Shown in pieces: positions 3,300-50,757 of a DNA stretch of 64,000 bases. The DNA is taken from the NCBI RefSeq assembly GCF_000060345.1, contig NC_008571.1:3352501-3416500 (forward strand). Direction: 5' to 3'. The notes beneath the pieces are model-generated. The model saw only the letters and a program-made list of their open reading frames with translations. It did no database searches and had not been told where the DNA came from. A program made the translations under genes and the position numbers. Each line of letters starts with the position of its first letter. Position 1 is the stretch's first letter. The DNA is from Christiangramia forsetii KT0803. GTDB taxonomy: Bacteria > Bacteroidota > Bacteroidia > Flavobacteriales > Flavobacteriaceae.

Positions 3300-4208
3300 A
3301 TGAAATTCCATAAGTTCTATTTACTCTTATTTTTTACCGGATTATTAGTGGGCTGTAAGTCGATTCCCCCGGAAAAAATCATAAACAACAACTTCCCAGA
3401 TTTTTTAATTGAAGGTCATCGTGGCGCGCGAGGGCTAAGCCCTGAAAATACGATCCCATCAATGATTAGGGCAATTGACGATGGTGCAAATGTTTTAGAA
3501 CTCGATATTCAGATCTCAAAAGATAAACAAGTTGTGGTTACCCATGATGCCTATTTAAGTCCCAAGTTAGTTTTACTGTCAAACGGAGAAAAAATAGCCG
3601 AAAACAGTGATGATGAATATATTATACATAAAATGGATTATGATTCTATTCGGAAATTTAAATTAGGAATGTTGCCACAAAATCGCTTTCCCAGGCAGCA
3701 AAGTATAAATACCTACATTCCATTACTAGGGGAATTAATCGATTCTGTAGAAACGTATACTTCAAAGAATAACCTATCAAAAATATTCTATAATATTGAG
3801 ATCAAATCTAATCCTGAAAAAGACGGTCATTATCAGCCAGAACCAAAAGTTTTAATGCCGTTAGTAATGAATGTTTTAAATAATAAAAATATAGATAAGC
3901 GGTTCTATATTCAGTCTTTTGATGTTCGACAAATTCAGGAAGTAAGAGCGAATTACCCCAACGTTCCGGTCGGTTTCTTAACCGGAAATAAAAAGAAAAC
4001 ATTTGAAGAAAATATCGAAAGTATTGGATTCATGCCAGAAATATACAGCCCGCATTTTAGCCTGGTTACTAAAGAGTTAATTGAAAAATGTCATCAAAAG
4101 GCAATCAAAATTATTCCGTGGACCGTAAATACTATAAAAGAAATTGAAAATCTTAGAGAATTGGGTGTAGATGGAATTATAACTGATTTTCCTAATCTGG
4201 TAAAATAA
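3300..4208 (+). CDS. Glycerophosphodiester phosphodiesterase, lipoprotein
   Basis: GDPD-family hydrolase (TIM barrel) that cleaves glycerophosphodiesters to glycerol-3-phosphate and an alcohol. The start is placed at the ATG at 3300, because that gives a clean lipoprotein signal peptide ending in LVGC with Cys19; an in-frame ATG at 3279 would add seven polar residues in front. The catalytic pattern is intact: H40-R41 in EGHRGARG, E49 in SPENT, E67 and D69 in LELDIQ, and H82 in VTHD. The C-terminal GVDGIITDFP matches the family end. It is probably anchored on the periplasmic side or cell surface and may release phosphate-containing headgroups, which fits the adjacent phosphate porin/PiT genes, though it is transcribed divergently. 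Length (302 aa) is normal. Confidence 0.92.
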   Translation: MKFHKFYLLLFFTGLLVGCKSIPPEKIINNNFPDFLIEGHRGARGLSPENTIPSMIRAIDDGANVLELDIQISKDKQVVVTHDAYLSPKLVLLSNGEKIAENSDDEYIIHKMDYDSIRKFKLGMLPQNRFPRQQSINTYIPLLGELIDSVETYTSKNNLSKIFYNIEIKSNPEKDGHYQPEPKVLMPLVMNVLNNKNIDKRFYIQSFDVRQIQEVRANYPNVPVGFLTGNKKKTFEENIESIGFMPEIYSPHFSLVTKELIEKCHQKAIKIIPWTVNTIKEIENLRELGVDGIITDFPNLVK

Positions 4209-4244
4209 TGAAATTCAACTTATTCTAAGACGGGATACTTAAAA

Positions 4245-4277
4245 CAAAAAAGCCGTTCGAAATGAACGGCTTTTTTT
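4245..4277 (+). terminator. Rho-independent terminator after GDPD
   Basis: Stem AGCCGTTC / GAACGGCT (4251-4258 and 4264-4271) with flanking A-tract and T-tract, so it can work in both directions. It ends the GDPD transcript. Confidence 0.85.
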
Positions 4278-4295
4278 GCTCCTCCTCTTGGGCTC
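4275..4295. repeat. Duplicated 3' end of tRNA-Asn
   Basis: A 21-nt stretch identical to 4372-4392, the 3' end of the downstream tRNA-Asn gene (acceptor-stem 3' strand, discriminator and part of the T arm, minus-strand sense) plus its immediate 3' flank. The copies are 97 bp apart. Directly after it comes a TTCGACCTCGCTC element of the dispersed repeat type seen also at 26.2-26.7 kb. It is not a functional tRNA. Confidence 0.75.
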
Positions 4296-4375: not shown

Positions 4376-4449
4376 CTCCTCCTCTTGGGCTCGAACCAAG
4401 GACCCTCTGATTAACAGTCAGATGCTCTAACCAACTGAGCTAAGGAGGA
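4376..4449 (-). tRNA. tRNA-Asn (anticodon GTT)
   Basis: On the minus strand the sequence folds as a standard cloverleaf. The acceptor stem is TCCTCCT paired with AGGAGGA, followed by discriminator G. The D arm is AGCTCAGTTGGTTAGAGC, the anticodon loop CTGTTAA carries GTT, and the T loop is TTCGAGC. The CCA end is not encoded. It is 74 nt long and is followed by its own hairpin terminator. Confidence 0.96.
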
Positions 4450-13553: not shown

Positions 13554-13700
13554 ATGGAAATTTTACAGGAAATACTAGTCTTTATAACCTTTCTAATCGC
13601 ATTAGGTTATATAATCACGAAGTTTGTGTGGAAACCTGCATTTTTAGGCGGAAAGAAAAAATCGGGATCCTGCGGGGTTTCAGACTGCGGTTGTGACTAA
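13554..13700 (+). CDS. FeoB-associated Cys-rich membrane protein (48 aa)
   Basis: A 48-codon gene with one transmembrane helix (about 5-24, LQEILVFITFLIALGYII), a short basic linker with KPAFLGGKKK, and a Cys-rich tail SCGVSDCGCD. This is the pattern of the small FeoB-associated Cys-rich proteins found after feoB in many bacteria. It lies 32 bp after feoB on the same strand. The three cysteines may bind iron or sense it; the function is not established. Its last four bases overlap the end of the convergent gene at 13697. Confidence 0.85.
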   Translation: MEILQEILVFITFLIALGYIITKFVWKPAFLGGKKKSGSCGVSDCGCD

Positions 13701-14179
13701 TCTTCTTCTATTTCTTCTGAAACTTTCAGGTTTAGCCTATACTGCTCCGGAGAGATCTTCTCACTTATATTAGGATATGGTAATACGATTACATTATCAA
13801 TAAATAGATCTTTAACACTGAAAAAATCTGCTACTGGAATTTTTGAACCGGTACTTATTTTATTCTTTCTTACCTCTCCCTCAACATACATTTCATCTAC
13901 CAGGATATTAGATCCCACGATGATCTTTTCACCTTTAAATTCACCATCTTCATAAAATTCTACCAGCACCTTTACTTCTCCTGCCCAAATACATGTAACT
14001 CCTTTGGGACATCTGGAATCTGAAATTACTCCTTTAAATTTAATTGACTTTTTACCAAAGTTCATACGATCTCCAATACACAATTGAGCGTTGTAAGTAT
14101 TGTATTTCGTACTTTCCTGTTCCTCACCTGCTAGAAATACCAGGTGAATCAAGACAAGAAAAAATATCGGGATTTTCAT
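13697..14179 (-). CDS. Exported protein of unknown function with CxWAG motif
   Basis: 160-aa secreted protein; no function recognised. The start is set at the ATG at 14179 because it begins a clean signal peptide (MKIPIFFLVLIHLVFLAG); a TTG at 14224 would add 15 residues without need. After cleavage the chain is beta-rich. It carries the segment SRCPKGVTCIWAGEVKV, a Cys-x5-Cys-x-Trp-Ala-Gly element that recurs in small exported Bacteroidota proteins. Only two cysteines remain in this motif (plus LCIGD), so a disulfide is likely. It converges on the feo operon with a 4-bp overlap and lies 6 bp downstream of the ZIP transporter on the same strand, so it may be the third gene of the dtxR-ZIP operon. 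Confidence 0.75.
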   Translation of the reverse strand: MKIPIFFLVLIHLVFLAGEEQESTKYNTYNAQLCIGDRMNFGKKSIKFKGVISDSRCPKGVTCIWAGEVKVLVEFYEDGEFKGEKIIVGSNILVDEMYVEGEVRKNKISTGSKIPVADFFSVKDLFIDNVIVLPYPNISEKISPEQYRLNLKVSEEIEED

Positions 14180-42442: not shown

Positions 42443-42443
42443 T

Positions 42444-42478
42444 AGCTAAAAGCTTTAGGCTCTAAGCTGAAAGCTTTT
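42444..42478 (+). repeat. Left 7-bp tandem array of four-helix-bundle element 1
   Basis: Five consecutive heptamers of the form AGCTnnA (starts at 42444, 42451, 42458, 42465, 42472; the middle unit begins GG). The core 42451-42467 is a 15/17 inverted match to 42863-42879 on the other side of the gene. Confidence 0.75.
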
Positions 42479-42491
42479 TAATGAAATAAAT

Positions 42492-42851
42492 ATGGTTGAT
42501 TATAGAAATTACACTGTTTGGAAAAAAGCTCATGCTTTAGTGTTAGATATCTATAAAACCACCAGGAATTTACCTTCTGAAGAAAAATTCAATTTAATTT
42601 CACAAATGAATAGAGCTGCGCTTTCTGTTCCAACTAATATTGTTGAAGGATGTGGCAGGGAAACTCAAAAAGAATTTTTAAGATTTCTACATATTTCTTC
42701 AGGTTCCGCTTTTGAATTGGAATATCTAATCTTGGTATGTAGGGATCTTAAATTCATTGATATTGAAACTTCAGAAGAATTGATGCGTCAAATAGCCGAA
42801 ATCAAAAGAATGCTATTTTCTTTAATTCAAAAAATAAAATCAGACCTCTAA
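42492..42851 (+). CDS. Four-helix-bundle protein, S23/TIGR02436 family
   Basis: 119-aa protein of the S23 (23S rRNA intervening-sequence protein) family, related to Avd of diversity-generating retroelements. Hallmarks are NYTVWKKAHALVLDIYKTT, FNLISQMNRAALSVPTNIVEGCGRE with the conserved RAALS, and EFLRFLHISSGSAFELEYLI. It is predicted to be an all-helical pentamer with a basic surface that binds nucleic acid. It lies between hemF and hemB in the operon's direction, where these hem genes would normally be adjacent. Flanked by 7-bp arrays in inverted orientation and without a transposase. A second member of the family sits in the scoAB operon at 49.7 kb. Function is unknown. Confidence 0.92.
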   Translation: MVDYRNYTVWKKAHALVLDIYKTTRNLPSEEKFNLISQMNRAALSVPTNIVEGCGRETQKEFLRFLHISSGSAFELEYLILVCRDLKFIDIETSEELMRQIAEIKRMLFSLIQKIKSDL

Positions 42852-42853
42852 TT

Positions 42854-42888
42854 CTACTTAACGCTTAGAGCTTAACGCTAAAAACTTA
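42854..42888 (+). repeat. Right 7-bp tandem array of four-helix-bundle element 1
   Basis: Five heptamers ending TTA or TAA (starts at 42854, 42861, 42868, 42875, 42882). Reverse-complemented they correspond to the AGCT-type units on the left. It ends six bases before the hemB start codon. Confidence 0.75.
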
Positions 42889-42894
42889 ATTCCA

Positions 42895-48974: not shown

Positions 48975-49631
48975 TTATTTCAATTTCATTTCGGGAATAT
49001 CACCCTCAATAATTAATTTCCCTTCTGTAGCTTTCTCAATTTCATCTACACTCACTCCCGGAGCTCTTTCCAATAGTTTAAAACCATTTTCCGTAACTTC
49101 CAGAACTGCCAGGTTGGTCACAATCTTAGTAACACAACCAACTCCTGTTAAAGGCAATGAACACTTTTTAAGTAATTTGGAGTCTCCGGCTTTGTTGGTA
49201 TGCATCATCGCTACAATAATATTTTCTGCGGAAGCTACCAGATCCATAGCCCCTCCCATACCTTTTACCATTTTACCAGGAATTTTCCAGTTTGCGATAT
49301 CGCCATTTTCAGCTACTTCCATAGCTCCAAGAATAGTAAGATCTACATGTTGACCTCTAATCATTCCAAAACTAATAGCCGAATCAAAGAAACTAGCTCC
49401 CGGTAGAGCGGTTATCGTTTGCTTTCCAGCGTTTATAAGATCTGCATCTTCCTCTCCATCAACCGGAAATGGTCCCATTCCCAGGATTCCATTTTCGCTC
49501 TGAAACTCCACCTGTATATCGTCACGTACAAAATTGGCCACCAACGTTGGAATTCCAATCCCCAGATTTACATAATATCCGTCTTTTATCTCCTTAGCTA
49601 TTCTTTGTGCTATTCCGTTTTTATCTAACAT
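48975..49631 (-). CDS. scoB: 3-oxoacid CoA-transferase subunit B (ScoB/AtoA)
   Basis: 218-aa beta subunit of succinyl-CoA:3-ketoacid CoA-transferase, moving CoA to acetoacetate. The catalytic Glu is in FQSENGILGMGPFP, and YVNLGIGIPTLVANFV and AMEVAENGDIANWKIPGKMVKGMGGAMDLV are characteristic. Partner of the alpha subunit at 50059; the two are normally adjacent, but here a four-helix-bundle gene and AT-rich repeats separate them. Confidence 0.95.
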   Translation of the reverse strand: MLDKNGIAQRIAKEIKDGYYVNLGIGIPTLVANFVRDDIQVEFQSENGILGMGPFPVDGEEDADLINAGKQTITALPGASFFDSAISFGMIRGQHVDLTILGAMEVAENGDIANWKIPGKMVKGMGGAMDLVASAENIIVAMMHTNKAGDSKLLKKCSLPLTGVGCVTKIVTNLAVLEVTENGFKLLERAPGVSVDEIEKATEGKLIIEGDIPEMKLK

Positions 49632-49637
49632 CTTTTC

Positions 49638-49673
49638 AATTTGTTAATTTGAGAATTAGGTAATTTGAAAATT
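49638..49673. repeat. Left AATTTG array of four-helix-bundle element 2
   Basis: Three AATTTG hexamers at 49638, 49646 and 49662 (8-bp register). The last forms AATTTGAAAATT (49662-49673), a 12-bp perfect inverted match to 50032-50043. Confidence 0.7.
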
Positions 49674-50025
49674 ATCTCATTTTGGTTGAACTTATTATTT
49701 TCGAAAGAATCTTGGTAATCGTCTTTAGTTCTTCTAATAACTCGATTTTAGGAGAAGGAAGTACTTCAGACTTCAAGCATAACTCTAACCAGTAGGTAGT
49801 CTCATCAGCTTCTTTCGCAGCAATTTTGAATTTGTGTATAAAATCAGCCTTACTTTCGGCATTTTGAGCTTCCTTCACATTCGCACCAATTGATGTACCA
49901 CTACGAAATAATTGAGAGGCCAGTTCAAACTTATGTTCTTTCCTTAGTAATTCTGTAAACAGAATAATTTCCAAAGAAAAATTAAAAGTTTTCTGAACTA
50001 TTATATTATCCCTGTCATCTCTCAA
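49672..50025 (-). CDS. Four-helix-bundle protein, second copy of the S23-like family
   Basis: 117-aa helical protein of the four-helix-bundle family, of a subtype different from the one in the hem operon: FNFSLEIILFTELLRKEHKFELASQLFRSGTSIGANVKEAQNAESKADFIHKFKIAAKEADETTYWLELCL. The conserved elements LFRSGTSIGANVxEA and KxAAKEADETxYWLELC are strong. The start codon appears to be TTG at 50025; an ATG nearby is out of frame. It lies between scoB and scoA in the same direction, flanked by 8-bp-register AATTTG repeats in inverted orientation. No transposase. Function unknown. Confidence 0.88.
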   Translation of the reverse strand: MRDDRDNIIVQKTFNFSLEIILFTELLRKEHKFELASQLFRSGTSIGANVKEAQNAESKADFIHKFKIAAKEADETTYWLELCLKSEVLPSPKIELLEELKTITKILSKIISSTKMR

Positions 50026-50029
50026 TCTT

Positions 50030-50059
50030 CAAATTTTCAAATTAAACCATTTTCAAATT
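50030..50059. repeat. Right CAAATT array of four-helix-bundle element 2
   Basis: Three CAAATT hexamers at 50030, 50038 and 50054, the same 8- and 16-bp steps as on the left side but in inverted sense. The array reaches the last base of scoA. Confidence 0.7.
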
Positions 50060-50757
50060 TATTTCTGTCTTACCGTTCGTTGTTCAATTCGTTTCTCATA
50101 GTCTTTTCCCTGGAAAATTCGTTGTACAAATATTCCCGGAATATGTATATGGTTTGGATCAAGTTCTCCTGGCTCTACCAGTTCTTCTACCTCAGCCACG
50201 GTGATCTTGGCTGAACCGCACATAGTTGGATTAAAGTTTCTTGCCGTTCCTTTAAAGATTAAGTTCCCTGCCTTATCCCCTTTCCAGGCTTTTACAAAGG
50301 CAAAATCTGCTTTAAAAGCTTTTTCAAGTACATACATTTTACCGTCAAACTCCCTGGTTTCTTTGCCCTGGGCAACTTCAGTTCCATAGCCTGCAGGTGT
50401 ATAAATCGCCGGAAATCCCTGCTGTGCCGCCTGGCATCTGGCCGCTAATGTTCCCTGCGGAATTAATTCTACATCAAGTTCACCGCTAAGCATCTGCTTT
50501 TCAAAAATGGCATTTTCTCCCACGTAGGAAGAGACCATTTTATCAATTTGTTTTTTATGAAGTAATTGCCCCAGGCCAAAATCGTCTACCCCGGCATTAT
50601 TGGAAATACAGGTAAGATTCTTTACGTTGAGTCTAACAAGTTCAGAAATCGCATTTTCAGGGATTCCGCTTAAACCGAAACCTCCAAGCATAAAGGTCAT
50701 CTCGTCCTTAACGCCTTCTAGAGCGTCCTGTACATTATTAACCGTTTTTATGATCAT
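50059..50757 (-). CDS. scoA: 3-oxoacid CoA-transferase subunit A (ScoA/AtoD)
   Basis: 232-aa alpha subunit of the CoA-transferase: MLGGFGLSGIPENAI at the N-terminus, CISNNAGVDDFGLGQLL and YTPAGYGTEVAQGKETREFDGK. Works with ScoB in acetoacetate or branched-acid activation. First gene of the transcription unit on the minus strand. The expected tight spacing to scoB is broken by about 430 bp of insert. Confidence 0.95.
   Translation of the reverse strand: MIIKTVNNVQDALEGVKDEMTFMLGGFGLSGIPENAISELVRLNVKNLTCISNNAGVDDFGLGQLLHKKQIDKMVSSYVGENAIFEKQMLSGELDVELIPQGTLAARCQAAQQGFPAIYTPAGYGTEVAQGKETREFDGKMYVLEKAFKADFAFVKAWKGDKAGNLIFKGTARNFNPTMCGSAKITVAEVEELVEPGELDPNHIHIPGIFVQRIFQGKDYEKRIEQRTVRQK

Follow-up and report, generated by a model that had tools for sequence, protein, structure and literature searches.

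Inverted arrays of short repeats enclose S23 four-helix-bundle genes in the gaps between protein genes of Christiangramia forsetii and other bacteria

The closest described counterpart of the element considered here is the intervening sequence (IVS) of the Coxiella 23S rRNA, which holds an S23 open reading frame, is closed by a 28-bp terminal stem and excised by RNase III, and carries directly before the S23 frame tandem heptamers whose number varies between strains, as described in the consulted portion of that source (PMC4990558). Heptamer arrays have also been reported in their own right, with the unit TAACTGA in Beggiatoaceae, Cyanobacteria and Bacteroidetes, Gramella forsetii being among the named hosts (PMC4679880), and with the unit GGGAATC in Xanthomonas and Nostoc, where two xanthomonads have 70 and 75 inverted pairs (PMC4692102), according to the parts of these two papers that were available; the terms S23 and four helix are absent from the main texts of both, and in PMC11270868 no mention of S23 or repeat was matched. 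The S23 family PF05635 is related to Avd of the diversity-generating retroelements (DGRs), as stated in the accessible part of PMC10053308. Genes with a PF05635 match are named merely 'four helix bundle protein', and among the open-access matches listed, judged by title and the start of the abstract and drawn from outside subscription journals and preprints, no paper joins S23 genes outside rRNA with heptamer arrays. The Foldback transposons of Drosophila end in long inverted stretches built from short tandem repeats, and the sequences of these ends are shared within a family.

The DNA analysed here, called the window below, is a stretch of 64,000 nucleotides of the C. forsetii KT0803 chromosome, and its relevant features are collected in the table. 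A first-pass annotation of the window had proposed that an S23-like gene splits the co-directional genes for the two subunits of a CoA transferase, and this is confirmed by a PF05635 gene lying between two PF01144 genes with all three on the minus strand. The product of the S23 gene between scoA and scoB matches PF05635 (23S_rRNA_IVP) with E 7.7e-26 and 90.8 bits (curated cut-off 33.8) and TIGR02436 with E 4.7e-30 and 104 bits (cut-off 24). The AATTTG units at 49638, 49646 and 49662 and the CAAATT units at 50030, 50038 and 50054 were found at the positions first given for them, and the reported 12-bp perfect inverted match is likewise real, AATTTGAAAATT (49662-49673) being the exact reverse complement of AATTTTCAAATT (50032-50043) and both lying within a longer arm pair (49646-49673 / 50032-50059; 28 nt, 82% complementary). 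The array on the scoB side gives TRF periods of 8 and 16. The 8-nt register is present at this locus as claimed, but it belongs to a minority class, 7 nt being the general register over many loci, and with its 8-nt units the locus falls outside the heptamer (STRR-like) arrays as defined by 7-nt tandem units. Similarly, the total of AATTTG in the window is ordinary (101 found, 119 expected), but its clustering at the locus is not: at least three same-strand copies within 30 nt occur in the window only in the two scoA-scoB flank clusters, and 100 dinucleotide shuffles of the window yielded one such triplet cluster in total. The 100-nt flanks have an inverted score of 86 (p=0.0035 against shuffled flanks; p=0.0045 with 50-nt flanks), and the gene with its two arms forms a unit of ~0.43 kb. 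A tRNA gene at 4376-4449 (-) is the sole Rfam match at gathering scores in the window, the same scan found no rRNA gene there, and models of defence systems gave no match.

Table. Features of the two S23 cassettes of the window and the host genes of the scoA-scoB cassette (window positions).
Feature	Position	Strand	Remarks
Upstream arm of other cassette	42443..42478	.	AAGCTTT/AGGCTCT/AAGCTGA heptamers, by eye
Other S23 gene of the window	42492..42851	+	PF05635 E 1.6e-38
Downstream arm of other cassette	42856..42889	.	TRF period 14
scoB, CoA transferase subunit, downstream host gene	48975..49631	-	PF01144 E 1.7e-48
Arm 3' of S23 gene, before scoB start	49633..49673	.	Octamer-register array, AATTTG x3
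S23/IVP four-helix-bundle gene	49672..50025	-	117 aa, TTG start; sole gene assigned to cassette
Arm 5' of S23 gene, touching scoA stop codon	50024..50059	.	CAAATT x3, inverted to other arm
scoA, CoA transferase subunit, upstream host gene	50059..50757	-	PF01144 E 6.3e-71

Set against the described systems, such S23 cassettes resemble the rRNA IVS in having an S23 frame within complementary terminal arms, with the heptamers that the consulted part of the Coxiella paper places before the frame as a further likeness, and differ from it in lying between protein genes, in occurring several to a genome, in having units specific to each locus and in having short repeats in both arms; they are not filed as IVSs because they are not in rRNA. 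With the TAACTGA and GGGAATC repeats they share the 7-nt unit, the mostly intergenic position and, in part, the inverted pairing, but many of those arrays, in the portions of the sources at hand, stand alone. Foldback transposons have ends of similar build, but their hosts and proteins are different, and the ends of the cassettes differ between loci.

The second S23 gene of the window lies between genes for coproporphyrinogen oxidase (PF01218) and ALA dehydratase (PF00490), and its flanks contain an inverted pair of 17 nt at 88% (p=0.008 at 100 nt and 0.025 at 50 nt against shuffled flanks). The first-pass annotation had drawn attention to two cases within 64 kb with the same architecture and different units; both are indeed inverted and their units differ, but they are two of the nine PF05635 genes in this genome (3.80 Mb, one contig). 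The repeat finder returns an inverted pair around eight of these nine, the ninth having an inverted score of 86, and the repeat units differ from locus to locus. The family is present in 23 of 24 genomes of the genus and in 232 of 296 genomes of a phylum sample. When the arms of each gene were scored against each other and against swapped flanks, the own inverted score was 87.8 against 59.5 for 108 genus genes (55 at the 95th percentile), 91.0 against 62.2 for 30 phylum-wide genes (15 at the 95th percentile) and, for genes of named loci, 102.8 against 56.7 (22 of 47 at the 95th percentile). Pooled and with duplicates removed, the values are 91.9 and 57.5, with 102 of 179 genes at or above the 95th percentile of swapped arms, 57 at or above the 99th and 77 below the 95th, in a sample whose loci were mostly taken best match first, such that the set leans towards subfamilies near the Pfam model. 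In direct orientation the score is lower (69.6 vs 91.9 inverted; 31/179 at the 95th percentile), and with the set reduced to one gene per genus site 12 of 22 still reach that percentile in the inverted test.

A score of at least 86 is reached by 116 of 204 S23 genes, a set that leaves out S23 fragments below 95 aa and genes with too little flank, vs 18 of 361 non-S23 genes sampled over 464 kb of the C. forsetii genome, and by five of the 34 controls most like S23 genes (co-directional, gaps of 20-200 nt). Of ten high-scoring controls inspected by eye, one is an ArsR-like gene with palindromes and others show integron-like sites or gapped matches in AT-rich sequence; none has a heptamer array of its own, and one is the gene before the other S23 cassette of the window. 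At one control locus (C1:1000001-1020000 of the C. forsetii genome) intergenic sites of the type AAGCCGACAAATCC...CGGTT are repeated; we take these to resemble the attC sites of integrons, and a chromosomal integron may lie there. A test of period was added because the plain inverted-score control is not clean.

This test gave a sharp answer at 7 nt. Autocorrelation over the 60-nt flanks of the 204 S23 genes peaks at 7, by +12.9 points upstream (z 15.9) and +12.1 points downstream (z 17.5); the peak is echoed at 14 and 21, and a small one stands at 8. A comparison with control gaps, which had been proposed with the original observation, puts 304 control gap ends at -0.9 points at period 7, without a peak. 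Strong arrays (at least 19/24 matches) occur in 38/204 upstream and 31/204 downstream flanks vs 1/304 controls, and 33 of the 38 and 26 of the 31 have period 7. The signal remains with one gene for each of the 22 genus sites (+10.2, z 6.0). A similar pattern was seen for 26 S23 genes in seven genomes reached via Planctomycetota, Polyangiaceae, Nitrospinota, Atribacteria and a bacterial MAG; seven of the 26 were already in the 204-gene set by way of loci picked for visible arrays and four below 95 aa were dropped, and the 15 new genes give +10.1 at period 7 (z 4.1), own arms at 93.8 vs 54.6 and 8/15 at the 95th percentile. Among plasmid records, 27 have an S23 match, and the 15 loci analysed, all cyanobacterial, have a stronger period-7 signal than any other set (+18.2), GTAGGGA and CAGGAGT being examples of their units, and 5/15 reach the 95th percentile of the inverted score. 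On three cyanobacterial plasmids S23 lies within a CRISPR-cas operon (L221 1501-1860, L224 1489-1857, L229 1471-1827), the order being cas6-S23-cas4 in two and cas10-S23-cmr3 in one. Carriage of S23 by phages was considered and gave no match in phage records, and all-frame stop codons as the purpose of 7-nt units were set aside, their excess being weak and on both strands. The anatomy of the S23 cassette and its generality are for us practically beyond doubt. Chance in AT-rich gaps is rejected for the S23 set by the inverted-score, gap-control and period tests, and the suggestion that a general mechanism is at work is upheld by the 102/179 own arms at or above the 95th percentile and by a period of 7 in S23 flanks that is absent from controls. 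We know of no mechanism that predicts a period fixed at 7 nt together with a sequence peculiar to each locus.

Whether the arms of one cassette belong to each other can be asked within orthologous gaps. Over 88 genes at 12 genus sites the summed own-arm score is 7374 vs a permutation mean of 6796 and was reached in 0 of 5000 permutations; the effect is carried by sites 0-3, and at three of the 12 sites (4, 8 and 9) own arms score no better. The most serious rival to a DNA element, although in our view unlikely, is an IVS acting at the level of RNA, whose arms would pair in the operon transcript and be cut by RNase III, so that the S23 piece leaves the mRNA and the stem is under selection as RNA. 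The predicted transcript fold does pair the cassette ends (z -2.5 at the scoA-scoB locus, -4.5 at L004), the Coxiella 23S IVS with its S23 frame, RNase III-cut stem and heptamers is a precedent as far as the consulted portion of its description goes (PMC4990558), and 156 of 173 S23 genes (the 179 less six without both neighbours, many of them orthologues) lie in the sense of both neighbours, vs 31 of 55 genes of the window. An RNA stem should, however, tolerate G-U pairs, and the mismatches in 102 arm pairs are 248 of the G-U type and 247 of the A-C type (3962 and 3934 in the swapped control); G-U pairs are not spared, selection on an RNA stem is rejected on this count, and upkeep of the arms at the level of DNA is favoured because G-U mismatches are not in excess. 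Against the RNA reading stand also eight cassettes from one site (s4) that are antisense to both neighbours, out of 11 S23 genes so placed. On the coding strand the upstream arm is rich in G, the aligned columns of the 102 pairs containing 1301 G and 633 C, and upstream arms of S23 genes were seen to be poor in ATG on that strand.

The gap between scoA and scoB offers alleles with and without the cassette, and the comparison with empty scoAB sites recommended at the outset could be made, such sites being found in both genus and family. Of the 23 genus genomes readable here, 10 carry the cassette, in 12 the two genes are 1-3 nt apart and in one (G016) they are 39 nt apart; the 29 loci of other genera comprise four with S23, nine with a 1-3 nt gap and others with unrelated sequence, and one locus (L303) with a cassette-sized gap and no S23 match at 1e-3 was scored as filled in the gap and tree counts. 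Filled gaps measure 387-461 nt, and in 15 of them the best inverted alignment lies 0-20 nt from the scoA stop at one end and 0-16 nt from the scoB start at the other, extending weakly into the gene in many. The cassette fills the space from scoA stop to scoB start. The 39 nt of G016 (L040 1420-1530) match nothing in filled relatives but their right arm; gene and left arm have gone, and this remnant is, to judge by its sequence, the scar of a cassette loss. An Ala codon at first taken for a mark of insertion was discarded, being variable in empty relatives as well. No target site duplication was seen by eye at scoAB or in the MAG contig L376; the gap ends have diverged.

The history of the gap is less sharply drawn. 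Fourteen scoAB S23 proteins form one clade (97/98) vs the S23 proteins of five other sites, and within it a sub-lineage 'B' unites an other-genus member with six genus members (95/95), four genus members lying outside; 'B' alone is supported and sub-lineage 'A' is not, and in a wider genus tree the ten genus scoAB proteins fall in two groups, forming one clade in 22% of bootstraps. On a scoA tree of 51 rows (L051, which is masked, and L298 being left out) the filled and empty states require 14 changes, no fewer than in shuffles, three of them forced by well supported branches; the genus part has seven changes, with three so forced. The scoA and scoB trees are weak, and vertical descent with many losses may fit them. 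Transfer of the cassette together with its flanks was rejected, near and far parts of scoA and scoB giving 5 to 9 changes with no clear gradient.

Beyond this gap, a tree of 103 genus S23 proteins shows 25 changes of site label for 22 sites (minimum 21), from which it follows that most S23 lineages keep one site, and some genus gaps hold two or three distant S23 lineages. The label 'between fadB and fadA' changes six times on a quick tree, with three changes forced by well supported branches. Near-identical sampled S23 genes come from different genomes and, by their flanks, from the same sites, with two exceptions. The first is a Flavobacteriaceae assembly (L162 2001-3156) with three tandem S23 copies, 99% alike, in 398-nt units, and the cassette can thus amplify head to tail. 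The second is the MAG contig L376, with three cassettes within 13.5 kb (555-1051, 3775-4279 and 13586-14007). The first pair agrees at 95.5% over 507 nt, with S23 at 99.7% over 330 nt, and the third is ~85% alike; the similarity starts and stops inside the arrays, the flanks are unrelated, and the neighbours include a T2SSF gene and a gene with an N-methylation motif. This contig is the best evidence for gene and arms moving as one unit, which it suggests subject to the possibility of misassembly in a MAG. Among the sampled genus S23 genes the same cassette was not seen at unrelated sites of one genome, and movement is concluded to be rare or old in most lineages because, L162 and L376 apart, no near-identical sampled S23 genes occupy two sites of a genome.

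Arrays also occur without S23. A strict detector found intergenic solo arrays, in 400-kb samples, at two places in the C. forsetii genome, at three of period 7-8 and one of period 10 in an S23-rich genome (G007), and at none in an S23-less one (G157), the same detector marking 34 of 204 S23 genes. Inspection by eye added solo arrays in L376 and, for five genus genomes (L202, L204, L205, L210, L211), heptamer arrays without S23 in the hemB gap, the units of the latter looking unlike those of S23-filled relatives. No remnant of S23 was found at E 0.01 near six solo arrays. These solo arrays would suit an order of events in which heptamer arrays arise alone in gaps and then capture S23 genes as targets, but we hold this to be distinctly improbable. 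The empty scoA-scoB gaps of 1-3 nt contain no array to hit, insertion into an array would leave direct halves and not the observed excess of inverted over direct scores, the arrays of L376 travel with the gene, and the solo array of G016 can be a leftover of a cassette, loss that spares one arm probably being one way in which a solo array arises.

A still smaller probability attaches to a regulatory module, in which S23 and its arms would tune translation or decay of neighbouring operon genes. It can draw on the conservation of S23, on the several S23 lineages held by some gaps and on thiolase genes lying downstream of S23 in 28 of 192 cases, an excess that is in part one of sampling because the loci came best match first; yet relatives alternate between the filled and the empty state at a single gap, and the neighbours are varied, with functions as far apart as haem or FeS synthesis and pili or CRISPR. 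At five loci (L063, L083, L095, L182, L252) S23 was noted with a fadA-like thiolase gene on one side and a gene resembling acyl-CoA dehydrogenase on the other, both named from sequence, with a further S23 before the thiolase in L063, L182 and L252.

The protein itself is constrained. For 54 same-site S23 pairs within chosen limits the median dN/dS is 0.105, and the S23 protein is under purifying selection; in-frame stops were noticed in some genus copies. S23 family proteins form pentamers. An AlphaFold2 monomer model of the scoA-scoB product (22-sequence alignment) has four helices and a mean pLDDT of 92.6, and a fold search places it closest to the S23 protein structures 2rld (the best; TM 0.74-0.89) and 2gsc (TM 0.76-0.82), Avd chains appearing at E 0.09 or worse (TM 0.61-0.76) amid unrelated bundles. 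A DGR-like system, with S23 acting as Avd and a reverse transcriptase supplied in trans, is hardly credible, the shared four-helix bundle, those Avd chains and a match to the Avd profile far under its cut-off (19.5 bits for the scoA-scoB S23 and 38.1 bits for the other S23 of the window, against 80 bits) being outweighed by the lack of an RVT_1 match in the C. forsetii genome, on which a reverse transcriptase in trans was rejected, and in the S23-rich G003, G007, G009 and G012 (RVT_1 is matched in 7 of 24 genus genomes).

The reading that we prefer, and consider rather probable, treats the cassette as an IVS-like element, selfish or mobile, with its mobility inferred; the arms would be its ends and would be kept alike at the level of DNA. 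The S23 gene and its arms would act as a compact cassette in gaps between protein genes, with ends formed by inverted short-period arrays (7 nt as a rule, 8 at scoA-scoB) of locus-specific sequence. Such a cassette might spread horizontally and re-enter the same gap, and it would presumably borrow host functions because it codes no recombinase, while the S23 protein, from a pentamer-forming family, could hold the folded ends. The likeness of the arms would come from slippage and template switching in DNA, one arm being copied into the other, and not from selection on an RNA stem. A wider proposal, possible though on balance doubtful, is that S23 cassettes constitute a new recombinase-free minimal class of mobile element in several phyla, mostly faithful to one site, with filled and empty alleles and self-made inverted 7-nt ends; on this view they would have left as footprints, besides the solo arm of G016, the STRR-like arrays of cyanobacteria, Beggiatoaceae and xanthomonads, and the 23S rRNA IVSs would be a special case that landed in rRNA.

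The cassette architecture recurs in several phyla and looks like an undescribed mobile or selfish element. As such it would tie together three puzzles, namely the rRNA intervening sequences, the orphan S23 genes and the heptamer arrays, and the filled, empty and scarred alleles of the scoA-scoB gap make gain, loss and the effect on the host operon directly testable.
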